From positions 1-32,843 of the forward strand of contig CALCMJ010000011.1 of the NCBI GenBank assembly GCA_937967615.1: DNA of 32,843 bases, read 5' to 3'. The notes under the pieces were generated by a model. It did not search any database. It had not been told where the DNA came from and was given only the letters and a program-made list of their open reading frames with translations. Numbering within the stretch: position 1 is the stretch's first letter; each line of letters opens with the position of its first letter. The DNA comes from an uncultured Saprospiraceae bacterium. GTDB lineage: Bacteria; Bacteroidota; Bacteroidia; Chitinophagales; Saprospiraceae. Shown here one piece after another: positions 23,287-32,761 of the stretch. The position numbers and the translations under genes are program-made.

Positions 23287-23712
23287 CTATTTTTTCTTAA
23301 ACCGAAAAGTCTCAACACAGTTAAACTGATCTACACTAAATGTGAGGATATCCCCAGTAATGGGCTCTGTTGTAGCACATTCATTTGCAGCTGGACATAT
23401 TGTTATTGTTTCATTGACATCGTCTAAGGTCACAGTCCCTATTTCTCTTGTTTCAGAATCTCCAGCAAACACCTCTGTAATCGTAGCTGTAGTTGCAGTA
23501 ATAGTCATGGTAATGCACCATTCTTCTCCATCTTCTGTGGCGCAGCCATCATCAAAGCTATTGGAATAATTATTTGAAGGATCATCACATACATATGAAT
23601 CTCGTTCCAAATTCCAGACACCTAAGGCCCTTTCTTCGAAAGTTTCTGAGCCACATGAGCTCATACAGATGAGCGCTAAAAATCCGAGTATTGTTGTCAG
23701 TTTTAAATTCAT
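23287..23712 (-). CDS. Small lipoprotein, paralogue of the 20861 gene
   Basis: A 141-residue lipoprotein with an N-terminal signal peptide ending in MSSC (Cys 20). The mature domain begins GVWNLERD and ends FRFKKK. The four cysteines of the paralogue at 20861-21271 recur in the same order (YVCDDP, DDGC, EWCITMT and FNC), and two more sit in a CPAANEC loop. The shared VC-x-DP, F-x-DGC and C-x-TMT strings make the relationship clear, although overall identity is low. It is presumably outer-membrane anchored. The gene sits just upstream of the radical SAM gene on the same strand, and the nqr terminator lies beyond its start. Function unknown. Confidence 0.85.
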   Translation of the reverse strand: MNLKLTTILGFLALICMSSCGSETFEERALGVWNLERDSYVCDDPSNNYSNSFDDGCATEDGEEWCITMTITATTATITEVFAGDSETREIGTVTLDDVNETITICPAANECATTEPITGDILTFSVDQFNCVETFRFKKK

Positions 23713-23852: not shown

Positions 23853-25178
23853 TTACCCGCCAAAGTCATCAAAAGCGATATTCTCATCCGGCACGCCTAA
23901 ATCATCTAAAGCCTTAAGTACTGATGCATTCATCGCCGGTGGCCCACAGAAATAATATTCTACCTCTTCTGGCTCAGGATGATTCTGCAAATATTCTTTT
24001 ACACATACTGGCATAATATAACCCTGGAATCCATCTCCATCTGAGTCAATATTTTCTTTCACCTGCCAGTTATCCTCTGGTAATGGATTATCGAGTGAAA
24101 CATAGAATTTGAAATTTGGAAATTCCTTCTCTATCTCTCTGAATTCATCTACATAGAATAATTCTCTTTTTGTTCTTCCTCCATACCAAAACGATACCTT
24201 TCTATCTTTCATCTTCTCAGTCTGGAACATGTGAAATAAATGCGACCGCAATGGTGCCATTCCTGCTCCCCCACCTATATACACCATCTCTTTTTTTGTA
24301 GGCTTAATAAAGAACTCTCCATAAGGACCAGATATCGTACACTTGTCTCCTGGCTTTAATCCAAACACATAACTTGAACATACTCCTGGATTCACATCTT
24401 TCCAACCGTTCGATGCTCTATCAAATGGTGGTGTCGCAATTCTAATATTCAACTTTACGATATTCCCTTCTGCTGGGTGATTGGCCATGGAATATGCACG
24501 AAACTGTGTTTCATCATTTACCATCTTCAAATCCCATAATTTAAACTTATCCCACTCCGATTGGAATTTACTAGGATCGTCATGGTGCTCTGGATGCGCA
24601 GTTATGTCCATATCTTTAAATGGTACAACTATCTCAGGAACATCTATCTGAATATAACCACCTGGCTTAAAGTCTAGCTCCTCGCCTGCTGGTAATTCAA
24701 CGACAAATTCTTTGATGAATGAAGCGACATTGTAATTTGACTTCACTGTACATTCCCATTTCTTAATCCCAAAAATTTCATCTGGAATTCTAAGAACCAT
24801 ATCGTTACGCACTTTCACCTGGCAAGCAAGCCTCTTATTCTCTGCTGCCTCTTTTCTTGTAAGGTGATTCATCTCTGTAGGAAGTACTTCTCCCCCGCCT
24901 TCATCTATATGACACTCGCACATAGCACATGTTCCACCACCTCCGCACGCAGAAGGAAGAAATACATTCTGATCTGCTAGTGCAGTCAATAACGTAGTTC
25001 CTGGAGATACTCGCACAGGATTGTCTTTTTCTCCGTTGATAAATAAACTTACCTCTCCTTGAGGTACAAGTTGCTTTCTTGCATAAATCAACATCATAGA
25101 TAATGCAAGGATTACTCCACAGAACACTAAGAGTGCCAGTAAAATAACTTTAGGATCAAAACTCAGAAGTACAATCAT
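23853..25178 (-). CDS. nqrF: Na+-translocating NADH:quinone reductase subunit F
   Basis: The NADH-oxidising subunit of the Na+-NQR complex in the inner membrane. It has one N-terminal membrane helix (about 8-32) and a [2Fe-2S] ferredoxin domain with C78, C84, C87 and C119 ([11 protein letters not shown] and RLACQVKV). The FAD-binding motif RAYS is at 227-230, and a [10 protein letters not shown] nucleotide-binding loop is at 302-311. At 441 residues it is longer than the ~408 of Vibrio NqrF, partly through an acidic/His insert around 195-212 ([11 protein letters not shown]). It is the last gene of the operon and is followed by a strong terminator. No apbE (flavin transferase) or nqrM lies next to it in this window. 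Confidence 0.97.
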
Positions 25179-25197: not shown

Positions 25198-25800
25198 TTA
25201 TTTAATTGCTGATGGATCTATTCCCATCAAACTCATGAATGCCATTCCCATTAATCCGGTAAGGATGAATGCCATTCCCAATCCTCTTAGCGCCGGTGGC
25301 ACGTCAGAGTAAATTATTTTTTCTCTTATTGCTGCAATTGCAATAATCGCAAGGAACCAACCAAAGCCACCACCTAATCCAAAGGCAATAGACTCAGACA
25401 GGTTATACTCTTTGGATACCATAAATAAGGATCCACCTAGTATCGCACAGTTCACCGTTATTAACGGAAGGAAAATTCCCAGCGAGTTATATAATGCTGG
25501 CGAAACCTTTTCAATTACCATCTCCACTAACTGCACCATTGATGCAATTACGGCGATGAATAGTATTAGCCTTAAAAATGTAAGATCAATTCCAAAAGGT
25601 CCTGTATCAGCCAAAAGGTAATTTTCTATCATCCAGTTTATAGGCATCGTAATACCCAAAACGAATATTACTGCTAGTCCTAAACCAAAAGCTGTCTTTA
25701 CAGTCTTAGAAACTGCTAAGTAAGAACACATCCCTAGAAAATATGCAAGTGCAAGGTTTTCAATGAATGCTGACTTTATAAATATATTTACTAACTCCAT
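25198..25800 (-). CDS. nqrE: Na+-NQR subunit E
   Basis: A 200-residue hydrophobic subunit with six predicted membrane helices. NqrE and NqrD form the membrane pair that binds an Fe centre and carries electrons across the membrane in Na+-NQR. The opening [23 protein letters not shown] is characteristic; it contains a [14 protein letters not shown] segment with the cysteine (C25) expected near the intramembrane iron site, and a second conserved-looking cysteine lies in VNCAILGG. It lies 19 bases after nqrD and 19 before nqrF, so it belongs to one transcript. The related Rnf subunits RnfA/RnfE are excluded by the presence of nqrF and nqrA in the same operon. Confidence 0.96.
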
Positions 25801-25818: not shown

Positions 25819-26517
25819 TTAAGAAATATCTACAAGATTTGGTCTCCAAGAACGATGTATCCAGATCAAAATTCCGATAACAAACATCGCAGATGGAAAT
25901 AAGACAAATAAATTATTGTGGGAATACCATCCTAACCAAGAACTTGTTGTAGTATTTAACCAGTAGTCAGCAGATGGGCCTATAATCTTTACGCCTGCAA
26001 GTGCACCCTTGCCAAAGAACTCTCTGATGACTGCTACAATGATTAATATAATTCCATATCCTATACCATTCCCTATTCCATCAAGAAATGACCTCCAAGG
26101 TCTATTGCTCATCGCATATGCCTCAAGACGTCCCATGATAATACAGTTTGTAATAATCAAGCCTATAAACACTGACAGCTCCTTAAAGATTGGATAGTTG
26201 ACTGCTTTTAATGTCAACTCAACCACAGTTACGAGTGCTGCAATAATTACAAGCTGTACAATCATACGCACCTGCTTAGGAATACTGTTACGTAGATAAG
26301 AGGTAATGAGATTTGAAAATGCTAATACAAACACCACAGCGATAGCCATTACAAATGCTTTGCTCACTAGTGTTGTAACTGCAAGAGCTGAACATATCCC
26401 CAGTACTTGTACAGTAATTGGATTATTGGAATCCAATGGATCTGTAAGTAACTTTCGTTCAGCTTTTCCAAAACTGAGGCCAGACTCCTTCTTTTCTAAT
26501 ACTTTAGTTTCTGCCAT
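25819..26517 (-). CDS. nqrD: Na+-NQR subunit D
   Basis: A membrane subunit homologous to NqrE, with six predicted helices and a cysteine-bearing ITNCIIMGRLEAYAM segment that is typical of NqrD/RnfE. It has a polar N-terminal tail (MAETKVLEKKESG) before the first helix, longer than in Vibrio. I chose the ATG at 26517; a TTG three codons upstream at 26526 is possible but weaker. The gene follows nqrC by 28 bases and precedes nqrE by 18. In the complex it contributes half of the intramembrane iron site used for electron transfer coupled to Na+ export. Confidence 0.96.
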   Translation of the reverse strand: MAETKVLEKKESGLSFGKAERKLLTDPLDSNNPITVQVLGICSALAVTTLVSKAFVMAIAVVFVLAFSNLITSYLRNSIPKQVRMIVQLVIIAALVTVVELTLKAVNYPIFKELSVFIGLIITNCIIMGRLEAYAMSNRPWRSFLDGIGNGIGYGIILIIVAVIREFFGKGALAGVKIIGPSADYWLNTTTSSWLGWYSHNNLFVLFPSAMFVIGILIWIHRSWRPNLVDIS

Positions 26518-26545
26518 TAGAGACAAATTTATTTTTTGTTAGTTA

Positions 26546-27286
26546 TTAACCTTTAATACTCTGAAAGTAGGGCTCGTAGTATTTTAAACCACGACTCATC
26601 ATTTCTGTAACCCCATCTGCTGTAATTGTTGCTCCTGAAATTCCATCTACTTCGTACACGGGATCTTTCGCTCCCCCTTTTCTTACAAAGACAGACCTAA
26701 GTTCTCCGTTGTCATATATCTTCTTCCCTTTGAACTGATTGTAAAAATCCTTGTTATCTTTTATTTCTGCACCTAATCCTGGCGTTTCAGCCTTGTGGTC
26801 AAATGACACACCGGCGATTGTATTTATATCCTCTTCAAAGGCAATGTTTCCCCATATTTCATCCCAAAGTCCTTTTCCCCGCACTGTCACGATATAGTAT
26901 TTTTTACCAGCATCTGACGTAAACAAATACGCAGGATAAATCTTTTCAGTTTCTGCCTTCTTTCTTTCTTTCCCCATATCTATACTAGACGCTGTTCCTT
27001 CCTTATAACCAGAAGCTATTACACCATCTTTATCTACCAGACTACCATCTGCCTTAATAACAGTTTGTGTGATCTTAGAAAAAATTTCTTCCACTTGGTC
27101 ATCGTTAAGTTCCGTAACAGGACTAGGTAAAAAGTCATTTACTGCTGCGAGTATCGCACGCTTATTATAAACGGCTTCATTCTTCTGATGAATTGGTTTT
27201 AATACGGTATTCATCCCTGCTAGTACAACAGCAACTAAGGCTGTCATAATGAGAACAAATTTTATTATTTGATTTGTACTATGCAT
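26546..27286 (-). CDS. nqrC: Na+-NQR subunit C, covalent FMN-binding
   Basis: A 246-residue subunit with one N-terminal membrane helix (about 8-30) and a periplasmic FMN-binding domain. The flavinylation motif D-G-I-S-G-A-T is present at 214-220, so T220 should carry the phosphoester-linked FMN attached by ApbE. GLGAEI (171-176) is another family landmark. The start ATG overlaps the last 8 bases of nqrB. The required apbE gene is not in this window. Confidence 0.97.
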   Translation of the reverse strand: MHSTNQIIKFVLIMTALVAVVLAGMNTVLKPIHQKNEAVYNKRAILAAVNDFLPSPVTELNDDQVEEIFSKITQTVIKADGSLVDKDGVIASGYKEGTASSIDMGKERKKAETEKIYPAYLFTSDAGKKYYIVTVRGKGLWDEIWGNIAFEEDINTIAGVSFDHKAETPGLGAEIKDNKDFYNQFKGKKIYDNGELRSVFVRKGGAKDPVYEVDGISGATITADGVTEMMSRGLKYYEPYFQSIKG

Positions 27287-28544
27287 TTGCTAAACGTTTT
27301 TTCATGTTTGTCTCTAATACAAAGTGATCAATTAAAGCCGCAAAAGTATTTAAGAAGAGTATTGCTAACATCCATCCTTCTGGGTAAGCTGGATTCAGAA
27401 CACGTACTATCATACCAATGAAGCCTATCAAGAATCCGTAGATCCATTTTCCTTTATTTGTTGATGCTGCAGTTACAGGATCAGTTGCCATAAATGCCAT
27501 TGCAAAAAAGAAACTTCCTAAATAAAATTGGTAGTACCATGGCACATCCATAAACGGAGTAGCTCCCCATAGATTTAATAACATGGACATACTTATTGCT
27601 CCTATGAGCATACTTAACATGATTCTCCAACTTGCAATTTTAGTAAACAACAAAAATGCTGCTCCTAAAAGAATAAGCGGCTTGCTTGTTTCTCCTATTG
27701 ATCCCGGAATTGCTCCCCACCATAATTGTGAAGCAGAGAATTTACTTGTTACTCCTTCCCATCCGCCTTGGTATGCTAATGCTAAAGGTGTTGCTCCACT
27801 ATAACCGTCAACTACTGCACCTGAAGTAAATTGGTCTAGACCCATCCAATCAAATAGCCCATTAAACAAGCCAGTATGCCACCAACTATAATCTGTTAAA
27901 CTACCTGGATTCATTGAAATGGCTCCTGTAGCATCTGCAAATCCTGATACCCATACATTATCTCCACTTATCGTAGTAGGGTATGCAAAGAAAACAAATA
28001 CCCTTGCGAGTAATGCGACATTCCAGATGTTCATTCCTGTTCCTCCAAATGCTTCTTTTCCAATGATAACTGCAAACGCAACTGCTACGCAAAGAATCCA
28101 AATTGGAATGTCTGGAGGCATAATGAGGGGAATAAGTGCACCTGAAACTAGGAAGCCCTCTTCTACTGCATGTCCCTTCTTGTATGCAAACCAAAATTCA
28201 ATACCTAGTCCCACAACATGGGTCCATATGAAAATAGGTAGCATCTTAATAAGTCCATGACTCAACTTAAGATGAAATCCTTCTAGGAAGCCAGGATACA
28301 TGCCCATAGCATCAAAATGCTGATGACCAATATTATACGTTCCAAATAAATAACAAAGTTGCATTGCTAAAACAACATGCACCATCGTTCGCTTAAGATC
28401 CATACCATCTCTGATATGTACTCCCCCCTTTGTCGTACTATCAGGAGAATAAGCAAAAGTGAAAAACGCATCATATGCTGTATGCAAAAATGGTTTCTCC
28501 TTTTTATCTGGCTCTATTCGTTTTAAAAAATCTAATAATCCCAT
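27279..28544 (-). CDS. nqrB: Na+-NQR subunit B, covalent FMN- and quinone-binding
   Basis: A large integral membrane subunit of about ten helices that carries Na+ through the complex and binds riboflavin, covalent FMN and the quinone site. The FMN motif D-G-Y-S-G-A-T lies at 246-252 with T252 as the attachment residue. The N-terminal sequence MGLLDFLKRIEPDKK and the early IRDGMDLKRTM region match NqrB rather than RnfD. The 421-residue length is in the usual range. The gene starts 39 bases after nqrA and overlaps nqrC by 8 bases. Confidence 0.97.
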   Translation of the reverse strand: MGLLDFLKRIEPDKKEKPFLHTAYDAFFTFAYSPDSTTKGGVHIRDGMDLKRTMVHVVLAMQLCYLFGTYNIGHQHFDAMGMYPGFLEGFHLKLSHGLIKMLPIFIWTHVVGLGIEFWFAYKKGHAVEEGFLVSGALIPLIMPPDIPIWILCVAVAFAVIIGKEAFGGTGMNIWNVALLARVFVFFAYPTTISGDNVWVSGFADATGAISMNPGSLTDYSWWHTGLFNGLFDWMGLDQFTSGAVVDGYSGATPLALAYQGGWEGVTSKFSASQLWWGAIPGSIGETSKPLILLGAAFLLFTKIASWRIMLSMLIGAISMSMLLNLWGATPFMDVPWYYQFYLGSFFFAMAFMATDPVTAASTNKGKWIYGFLIGFIGMIVRVLNPAYPEGWMLAILFLNTFAALIDHFVLETNMKKRLANA

Positions 28545-28583: not shown

Positions 28584-30122
28584 CTAGGATTGCTCCTGCA
28601 TCATATCCAAACCGTCTCTTAATATTTGTTGTAGAGGCATTTTTGATGTGCAAGCAAACTCACACAAGGCCAAATCCTCTTCTGATAATTCGTTTATTCC
28701 TAATCCTTCCATACGCTCAAAATCCCCAGCCATGATCGCTTTCATTAAATGTTGCGGATAAATATCCATAGGCAACATAGACTCATATTGTCCCGTCATC
28801 ACAAAAGCTCTCTTTTCACCATGTGTGTTTGTATCCACTTCAAACTTATGACTTGGAAATAAAAAGTTAGGGAATGTTTTAGATACACTTGGTCTTGGTT
28901 TGATTGGTAATAACCACCCAAACATCTCGTGATAATTTCCTTCTTTTATTACGGTAAGTTGATCCGTTTTCGCATCTATAAAGCTGTCAGGACTAAGTTG
29001 GTTTCCACCTAATACACTTCCTGCAATAATTCTTTTATCTGCATTCAGCGTTTCTGACTTCAATAATTCAGCAACACTAGCGCCACTAGAAACTCTGACG
29101 ATTCTAGGATTATCCAACTCAGAACCTGTAAGCGCTACTAATTTTGAAGAATCATATACACCCTCAGAAAATAACTTACCTATCGTAATGACATCTTGTA
29201 CTTTTAATGTCCATACAACATCCGCACTTTTAATAGGCTTGATGTGATGTATCTGGATTCCTACATTACCGGCAGGATGCTTACCTTTAAAATAATGCAC
29301 TTCTGCATTTTGTGCAGAAGTAAACGCAGTACTGTTTTTTAAATTTGAACTTTCTACACCCAGATATACCTTACCATCTGTAAGTGATGCTAATACATCA
29401 ATCCCTTTTTGAAAGTAAGATTCGTGACCTGATACTACTTTGTTTTGATCTAAAGCTAGAGGAGCCGAATTAAATGTAGAAATAAATATATCTCTAGGTG
29501 TCTCTTCTGGTTTTGCAATTGTATCAAAGGGTCTTCTTGAAATACTTGTCCAAACCCCAGACTCCATCATAAACGCTTTGACGTCTTCTCTACTTGCTTC
29601 TCCTATTTTTGGTGCATCAAATTTTCTATGCTTGATTTCCTTGTCTGCAAGAATCACAATATTTTCAATTGCACGCTTTGCACCTCTTCCTATTTCTACA
29701 ACTTCCCCACTTACTGGAGAAACAAATTTGATATCAGGATTAAGCTTATCATAGAATAGTGCATCCCCTGCTAAGACTTCTTCCCCTTCTGCCACAAGCA
29801 TCTTTGGAATAGGCGCAATGCCTCTATAATTTGTAGGCTTAACAGAATATCTGCTAGATTGGACAGAAACAACATTGCCGCTTGCTTCACCGGTAAGTTT
29901 AATGTCATGTCCCTTCGTCAGAACATGGTATTTAGACTTATCAATGTTTTCAGGAACAGGAGGGCCAAAAAACTCTCCTAATTTTGGAAACAAGCTAAAG
30001 TTCTCTTTAGCTGTGTCAATGCCCGATTTTTTTGCTTCAATTTGAAGAAAGCTATCAGTGATAGATATAATTGCAAGAACTAAAAGTATTCCTGCAATTA
30101 CGAATAAGGTATTTACCAACAT
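28584..30122 (-). CDS. nqrA: Na+-NQR subunit A with extra N-terminal membrane segment
   Basis: The first gene of the nqr operon. The body from about residue 65 onward (VLTKGHDIKLTGEA, the SRYSVKPTNYRGIAPIPKML region, and the C-terminal FPNFLFPSHKFEVDTNTHG area) matches NqrA, normally a ~447-residue peripheral cytoplasmic subunit. This protein is 512 residues from the ATG at 30122; a TTG at 30128 is the other option. The excess is N-terminal: a hydrophobic helix (about 4-23) followed by a Lys-rich linker. No alternative start lies near the usual NqrA beginning, so the anchor appears genuine. Positive residues after the helix favour a cytoplasmic C-terminus, consistent with NqrA's known location. 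Confidence 0.93.
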   Translation of the reverse strand: MLVNTLFVIAGILLVLAIISITDSFLQIEAKKSGIDTAKENFSLFPKLGEFFGPPVPENIDKSKYHVLTKGHDIKLTGEASGNVVSVQSSRYSVKPTNYRGIAPIPKMLVAEGEEVLAGDALFYDKLNPDIKFVSPVSGEVVEIGRGAKRAIENIVILADKEIKHRKFDAPKIGEASREDVKAFMMESGVWTSISRRPFDTIAKPEETPRDIFISTFNSAPLALDQNKVVSGHESYFQKGIDVLASLTDGKVYLGVESSNLKNSTAFTSAQNAEVHYFKGKHPAGNVGIQIHHIKPIKSADVVWTLKVQDVITIGKLFSEGVYDSSKLVALTGSELDNPRIVRVSSGASVAELLKSETLNADKRIIAGSVLGGNQLSPDSFIDAKTDQLTVIKEGNYHEMFGWLLPIKPRPSVSKTFPNFLFPSHKFEVDTNTHGEKRAFVMTGQYESMLPMDIYPQHLMKAIMAGDFERMEGLGINELSEEDLALCEFACTSKMPLQQILRDGLDMMQEQS

Positions 30123-31705: not shown

Positions 31706-32761
31706 TTAAATTTTGGACATCTCAATTTGATGCCATTCGTATCTTATTTTTCTCAATAATTTGACCATTACTTTTATGATCGCATATTGTGATTTGCGGA
31801 GTCTAACTTTCTGATCTTCGTAATATGCACTCATTTCAGAATTAAATCTAACAGCACTCCAGGCGCATTGATTCAGTGCAATCATCACAAGTCCATTACA
31901 CCTTTTAGTCAAGTGGCCTCTTCTATCTGTTTCTGCAGAGGATTGCTGCGAAGGAATTAATCCGACAAAACTTTGCAAGTTGTTAAATGTTTTAAATCTT
32001 GACATACTTATTAACTCTGTGATAAAAATCATTGCGGTAATACTACCAACTCCTTTGATTTTTATCAAGCTTTCAATAAGCTCTTTGTATTGTTGTGTTT
32101 GGCTAAGCTGTCGTATTCTTCTTAGGCTTTTCAATTCTTGTTCACGTAAACTCTTGATAGTATCTAGGTAACCTAACATGGCAAAATCATCTCGTAGCTC
32201 TGCATTTTGTTCAAGTTGTCTTATTTTATTTCTAGACCAATACTTAGGCATTTGTCCTTCGTCCCACTCAACAAGTAATCCTTGGAAGTTATAATGACTC
32301 ATGATACGATTCTTGAACTGTTTAATACATTGATTAATTCTAACACGCTGTCGAACCAAACTTCTAGACTGTTCTTCTTGTTTTGTAGGTATGTAAATGC
32401 CTTTTAATTGGTTAGCTCTAAGGGCTTTACTTAATTTAATAGCATCAATCTTATCACTTTTATACACCGAATCTTTATTCGATGTAGGTACATCAGCTGG
32501 ATTTACTATAATGCAGTCAATTCCTAAAAGACTCAATTCCCTATGAAGCCAAAATCCACTAAAGCCAGCCTCGTAGACGCAATGGTAATTAGCTCCTGGA
32601 TAATGCTTAGTCAAATACTTATAAATGACATCTCCATTATAAGGATTTAGTTTTACTACATTACTTAATGAAAGATTACTGCTTAAAACTTTCAGATCAC
32701 AACTCTTTTTGTGTACATCGAGGCCAACATAGATTTCCTTACCTTTAAAATTACTATTCAT
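31706..32761 (-). CDS. IS110-family transposase
   Basis: A 351-residue transposase of the IS110 type. The N-terminal RuvC-like DEDD domain has D15 (GLDVHKKSCDLKV), E64 (YEAG), D103 and D106 (KSDKIDAIKL). A helical middle region follows, then the C-terminal Transposase_20 domain, with KGVGSITAMIFITEL (236-250) and SFVGLIPSQQSSAETDRRG (264-282) including the probable catalytic serine (S274 or S275). All key residues are intact and there is no frameshift, so the gene may be active. In this family, insertion is guided by a structured non-coding RNA encoded in the element. A TAnnTTTG box lies 64 bases upstream. No cargo or neighbour relation is seen. Confidence 0.95.
   Translation of the reverse strand: MNSNFKGKEIYVGLDVHKKSCDLKVLSSNLSLSNVVKLNPYNGDVIYKYLTKHYPGANYHCVYEAGFSGFWLHRELSLLGIDCIIVNPADVPTSNKDSVYKSDKIDAIKLSKALRANQLKGIYIPTKQEEQSRSLVRQRVRINQCIKQFKNRIMSHYNFQGLLVEWDEGQMPKYWSRNKIRQLEQNAELRDDFAMLGYLDTIKSLREQELKSLRRIRQLSQTQQYKELIESLIKIKGVGSITAMIFITELISMSRFKTFNNLQSFVGLIPSQQSSAETDRRGHLTKRCNGLVMIALNQCAWSAVRFNSEMSAYYEDQKVRLRKSQYAIIKVMVKLLRKIRYEWHQIEMSKI

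Follow-up and report, generated by a model that had tools for sequence, protein, structure and literature searches.

NqrA is described as a subunit without a transmembrane helix in the cited passages of three reports (PMC9325719, PMC10643135, and PMC4014512), and a passage of a fourth describes its role as open (PMC12174285). According to part of PMC9325719, a loop of Vibrio NqrA (residues 330 to 379) is entwined with the NqrB N-terminus and reaches into the membrane, and the N-terminal part of Vibrio NqrB is a quinone lid that touches NqrA (passages of PMC9325719 and PMC10643135). RnfC of the RNF complex is likewise cytoplasmic and is held by RnfD, the counterpart of NqrB; it has FMN and two 4Fe-4S clusters and, in the passage cited from PMC9588780, no helix anchor. 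NqrF and NqrC each have one N-terminal helix bearing a hydrophilic domain, which is how an anchored NqrA would work (passages of PMC9325719 and PMC10643135). In contrast to this likeness in design, their domains are unrelated to NqrA, and that of NqrC faces the periplasm.

We analyzed nqrA in a window of 32,843 nucleotides, by which we mean the whole stretch of DNA under study. The nqrABCDEF operon is complete in the window, and nqrA is its first gene. The relevant features are as follows.

28584..30122, minus strand: nqrA, 512 amino acids from an ATG start, heading nqrABCDEF, with a match to NCBIfam TIGR01936
30054..30113, minus strand: predicted membrane-spanning helix of NqrA, residues 4 to 23 (predicted helix 2 to 32), from hydropathy and AlphaFold2 and found in relatives
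29931..30053, minus strand: helix continuation and putative cytoplasmic linker, NqrA residues 24 to 64, with conserved motifs D-N-L-L-x-I-E-A-K, S-x-F-P, and E-x-F
28584..29930, minus strand: NqrA core, residues 65 to 512, with three NQRA Pfam domains and structural superposition on V. cholerae NqrA
28788..28937, minus strand: NqrB-docking loop, NqrA residues 396 to 445 (Vibrio NqrA 330 to 379), located by alignment, with its role taken from a passage of PMC9325719
30180..30187, minus strand: TATCTTTG, a match to TAnnTTTG (the Bacteroidota -7 promoter box) that begins 65 nt upstream of the nqrA ATG
27279..28544, minus strand: nqrB, encoding the docking partner, by ORF and Pfam
26546..27286, minus strand: nqrC, by ORF and Pfam FMN_bind
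25819..26526, minus strand: nqrD, by ORF and Pfam Rnf-Nqr
25198..25800, minus strand: nqrE, by ORF and Pfam Rnf-Nqr
23853..25178, minus strand: nqrF, by ORF and Pfam Fer2, FAD, and NAD domains

The window protein scored 443.9 bits against the TIGR01936 cutoff of 321.05 (NCBIfam), and the Pfam domains NQRA_N, NQRA_2nd, and NQRA_SLBB occur in it in order. We found that it has the same core fold as V. cholerae NqrA (7XK3, 8A1Y, and 8ACY; Z 47 to 48, 2.0 to 2.2 Å over 390 to 439 residues, 37% identity), with the docking loop and the domains common to both, and that its core is related to that of RnfC (7ZC6, 9ERI, and 8AHX; Z 27 to 28, about 4 Å). In contrast to V. cholerae NqrA, which has no transmembrane helix in the passages of PMC9325719 and PMC10643135, the window NqrA has about 64 residues, forming a helix and a linker, before the core: NQRA_N begins only at residue 68, and residue 65 of the predicted model superposes on residue 1 of Vibrio NqrA.

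The preliminary description had placed a hydrophobic helix at about residues 4 to 23 and a linker roughly 60 residues ahead of the usual start, and both were borne out. The best 19-residue window spans residues 5 to 23, with a mean Kyte-Doolittle hydropathy of 2.44. Given an alignment of 75 anchored relatives as input, AlphaFold2 predicted a single helix at residues 2 to 32, with a pLDDT of about 90 for residues 1 to 20 and then 73 and 55 for the next two sets of ten; confidence was low in the linker and high in the core (mean pLDDT, 90.5 overall). By both hydropathy and AlphaFold2 the window NqrA thus departs from the published description of the subunit, and because a predicted transmembrane helix is present, we regard it as a variant and not an ordinary member. 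The absence of such a helix describes the enzymes studied and is no criterion of the TIGR01936 or Pfam models. The anchor may easily be overlooked because the Pfam match begins only past the extension.

We searched 148 related genomes from the family and order of the window; 101 had a match, 99 loci were obtained, and 97 could be classified. Two genomes (G014 and G039) were left out since their matches begin inside the core, at residues 129 and 155, and two loci (L095 and L099) stayed unclassified, their best match starting beyond residue 100 beside masked stretches. A hydrophobic helix stood in the same place in 82 of the 97 loci, so the extension is conserved among relatives, and its presence is not due to chance. 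The same count rules out an artefact of one assembly. Seventy-one loci had a signal-peptide-like segment followed by the helix, 11 had the helix alone, as in the window, and 15 had no anchor. The anchor occurred in 74 of 79 loci from the window's family (Saprospiraceae and allies) and in 8 of 18 from other families of the order. We concluded that the anchored NqrA is real and extends beyond the window's genome.

Among the best 80 of 587 loci from named genomes, which partly overlap the genomes of the 97-locus set and include 11 near copies of other rows, 39 were anchored, 40 were unanchored (L146 and L164 assigned by hand), and 1 (L144) was improperly read. The anchored loci in these best 80 came from Saprospiraceae, Lewinella, Neolewinella, Phaeodactylibacter, Membranihabitans, Saprospira grandis, Chitinophagales, and unplaced bacteria; cultured organisms with the anchor include S. 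grandis, Phaeodactylibacter xiamenensis, Membranihabitans, and Neolewinella xylanilytica. The unanchored ones came from Flavobacteriales, Bacteroidales, Cytophagales, and others and from one Saprospiraceae metagenome-assembled genome. For 56 loci classed as unanchored, including the badly read L144, we also ran a profile search over three frames of as much as 700 nt of upstream sequence and found no separate ORF encoding the anchor (best E, 0.54).

In a phylum-wide sample of 296 genomes, NqrA exceeded the cutoff in 54. The stop-to-stop frames were 520 to 567 codons long in 6 members of the window's family and at most 488 codons in 48 genomes outside the order. Against a 446-position profile, those 48 frames leave no room for an extension as long as that of the window but could still accommodate a very short helix-only anchor like that of L066. 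In a plasmid collection (51 records), 28 of the 30 matches listed start at residue 68 or later.

A profile of the extension had nqrA as its sole match in the window's own genome. In 198 genomes of the phylum, 30 matched it with E values of at most 0.01. Six of these belong to the window's family; the other 24 gave weak matches (best E, 5.0e-6), and the one inspected (L187) was a cytochrome-like protein with a signal peptide. Seven further weak matches that we inspected (L180 to L186; E, 6.0e-6 to 1.2e-3) were Bacteroidota proteins that we take to be CcmD-like or CcoP-like, names based on sequence features and not on a family search. They have a signal peptide ending in Ala-Gln or alike and then one helix. 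These proteins are not NqrA fusions, and the likeness, which may or may not reflect common descent, extends over no more than the signal peptide and helix. By eye, the ORFs of L180 to L185 (71 to 94 codons, signal peptide plus helix, CcmD-like) adjoin a glutamate-dehydrogenase-like ORF.

The signal-peptide-like segment of the 71 loci (for example, L003, L005 to L010, and L012 to L014) covers NqrA residues 1 to about 35, mostly ends in Ala-Gln, and is absent from the window's genus; it was called by a rule on hydropathy and charge, in place of a trained predictor, and a positive residue near the start is built into that rule. The motif [AGS]Q precedes the helix in 82 of 90 signal-peptide forms, and the peptide may be cleaved near it. 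Lys and Arg were in excess on the inner side of the helix in 85 of the 90 (equal in 5). Helix-only homologues kept the same charge order, with the excess in 18 of 18 and no Lys or Arg before the helix; these 18 rows include the window, and their start codons were picked by a set rule. With a signal peptide followed by a stop-transfer helix, the core should be cytoplasmic in either case, with the peptide cleaved or intact. An external amino end and a cytoplasmic NqrA core would agree with three features: the signal peptide, the charge pattern, and the location of the partners in the cytoplasm. For the window protein, the predicted topology is accordingly a single helix (2 to 32) with N-out/C-in orientation. 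In two helix-only genomes (G001 and G018), upstream profile matches considered as relics of a signal peptide each cross one stop and were rejected; in L002 the stretch overlaps the promoter box and was regarded as chance.

A signal-peptide-like start is also what would be expected if the helix served only in targeting and assembly. According to this alternative, the main one, the helix leads the nqrABCDEF message and NqrA to the insertion machinery, where NqrA meets NqrB during its insertion, and the helix plays no part once the enzyme is complete. In keeping with this alternative, nqrB came after nqrA, in the same orientation, in all 161 loci whose sequence continues for 300 nt or more past nqrA, and we found no conserved face on the helix, with 2,630 of 5,000 shuffles equally strong. 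Specific packing of the helix against NqrB is therefore unsupported. In contrast, the conserved motifs in the cytoplasmic linker go beyond the needs of a pure targeting signal. The linker residue Pro46 is nearly invariant (93% by weight), and D23, A30, G34, and S43 are fairly conserved. Alignment A1 leaves out L066, L070, L074, L078, L080, L097, and L098, all anchored; alignment A2 holds 58 of the 86 signal-peptide rows and the window. Across 75 relatives, the extension was more variable than the core (mean entropy, 2.2 to 2.6 versus 1.5 bits). Between the window and a relative in its genus, a single pair with dS near saturation, dN and dS were 0.085 and 2.0 for the extension and 0.128 and 1.9 for the core. 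The extension thus changes no faster than the core between these two species. In the same comparison, the helix codons (dN, 0.094; dS, 3.7, saturated) were under purifying selection.

This selection also bears on whether the start was misassigned, in which case translation would begin after the helix and NqrA would be soluble, as it is elsewhere. The preliminary description held that no alternative start codon exists near the usual beginning. This was right for ATG, the next in-frame ATG being M108, inside the core; in contrast, an in-frame TTG lies at codon 44 (29993 to 29991), 21 codons before the usual beginning. Such a later start gains from that codon, from a GTG in frame right at the usual NqrA beginning of L002, a relative in the same genus, and from the lack in Bacteroidota of Shine-Dalgarno sequences marking starts (a passage of PMC6847099). 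Nevertheless, we judge it very unlikely: the open frame and helix are repeated in 82 loci, the helix codons are under the selection just described, codon 44 is not a start codon in L002, and the promoter box precedes the entire extension. Another TTG (30128) precedes the ATG by two codons, and a start there would add an Arg before the helix; we prefer the ATG because the helix-only rows have no Lys or Arg there.

In Flavobacterium psychrophilum, the box TAnnTTTG occupies positions -12 to -5 relative to the transcription start (a passage of PMC9723704). We found it in the 120 nt ahead of the assigned start in 74 of 88 loci with signal peptide and helix, 18 of 18 with the helix only, and 38 of 54 without an anchor; from mononucleotide shuffles, 6.6, 1.8, and 5.2 would be expected. 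Within the extension itself, the box occurred 9 times in the signal-peptide set and twice in the helix-only set, as plain counts with no computed expectation. In the window, the predicted promoter sits upstream of the whole extension. The membrane anchor named in the preliminary description thus draws support from conservation, the charge pattern, purifying selection, and the upstream promoter box, with insertion itself a prediction from these features.

We built a quick tree, with SH-aLRT support only, from 163 NqrA cores, that is, 177 classified loci minus L097, L098, and L144 (short or unread core) and minus 11 near copies. It required at least four changes between anchored and unanchored NqrA and at least six between signal-peptide and helix-only forms, counts that cannot separate gain from loss. 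The at least six changes are most simply read as cases in which the signal peptide was lost and the helix retained, which argues against a helix that acts in targeting alone; given also the linker motifs, we consider that alternative unlikely. Four unanchored rows are nested in the Saprospiraceae clade, so the anchor is not essential. In anchored rows from the order's other families, the helix and linker are similar by eye, at low identity, and this likeness suggests a single origin of the anchor followed by losses. Consistently with secondary loss of the helix, the first 20 residues of L067 and L082, unanchored members of the window's family, resemble by eye the end of the linker (P-x-Y-x-x-G or alike). 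The ancestral form probably had a secretory signal peptide, likely cleaved near Ala-Gln, then a short Gly/Ser-rich outer segment and the helix; in the window's lineage, the signal peptide was probably lost and the helix would be inserted directly. We also observed that the unanchored NqrA sequences of L093 and L164, from genomes of the window's family, grouped with a Cytophagales sequence and not with those of the Saprospiraceae, which points to horizontal transfer or a misplaced genome.

The preliminary description had also proposed that the anchor could change how NqrA docks onto NqrB. In its strongest form, the helix and linker would take over contacts with NqrB and change the lid of the quinone site. 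We found no change in the overall length or hydropathy of the docking loop between 108 anchored and 55 unanchored sequences: the median length was 50 in both groups, mean hydropathy was 0.18 versus 0.16, and the equivalent of Vibrio Trp337 was invariant (163 of 163). Single positions do differ. At Vibrio Leu352, Pro stands in 92 of the 108 anchored and 14 of the 55 unanchored sequences; at Ala338, Leu stands in 101 and 25; and Lys62, in the patch facing NqrF, is kept in 63 and 6, although such group differences are confounded with descent. The first two positions, together with the nearly invariant linker Pro, speak for altered contacts, as does a shorter NqrB before the HIRD motif, the region of the quinone lid in Vibrio. 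In 145 of the 161 loci (93 + 4 + 10 + 38), with a start rule that takes a late Met in some, the median number of residues before HIRD was 43 in anchored loci (n = 93) and 47 in other Bacteroidota (n = 38). In contrast, part of this shortening is present without an anchor in the same order (median, 44.5; n = 10); the four unanchored family members had 22, 24, 43, and 44. The loop keeps its length and mean hydropathy but differs at some contact positions, and we regard re-shaped docking as possible but quite improbable.

The reading that we favor, and hold to be probable, is that NqrA of this lineage is a membrane-anchored subunit with an N-out helix, a linker, and a normally docked core, for which the anchor acts as a tether. 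The single helix would cross the membrane from an external amino end to a cytoplasmic carboxyl side, and a linker of about 40 residues would carry an ordinary NqrA core that docks on NqrB by the usual loop. Most likely, the anchor brings NqrA to the membrane while it is being made and holds it there at a high local concentration, and it may thereby stabilize the NqrA-NqrB-NqrF assembly. An auxiliary tether, added to normal docking, is the most likely role because the docking loop is retained and the anchor is missing from some Saprospiraceae. Vibrio NqrA tolerates an N-terminal tag (a passage of PMC10643135), which makes an extension at this end plausible on steric grounds.

A bolder version, which we put forward tentatively and think rather doubtful, is that a lineage of about the rank of an order made the peripheral NqrA integral, the first such case described in the NqrA/RnfC family, and that the anchor lets NqrA and the NqrF domain leaning on it loosen from NqrB in turnover or stress and re-dock without being lost. 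If this were true, NqrA would have a scaffold function that could be dissected by trimming a tether.

We found no report of an anchored NqrA in the titles and opening parts of abstracts of the papers listed, in a literature scope that takes in few subscription journals. The membrane-anchored NqrA is a new form of a known subunit, and predicted helices may already stand in database annotations. The existence of this form suggests that respiratory-complex subunits classed as "peripheral" can acquire membrane anchors across whole lineages unnoticed. Lineages with the tether, with the helix minus the signal peptide, or with no tether are natural experiments on the open role of NqrA.

Two other ORFs lie on the minus strand near the operon. 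One, at 23287 to 23712 directly downstream of nqrF, is small and lipoprotein-like, without a Pfam match. The other, at 31706 to 32761 upstream of metF and nqrA, resembles an IS110 transposase by eye.
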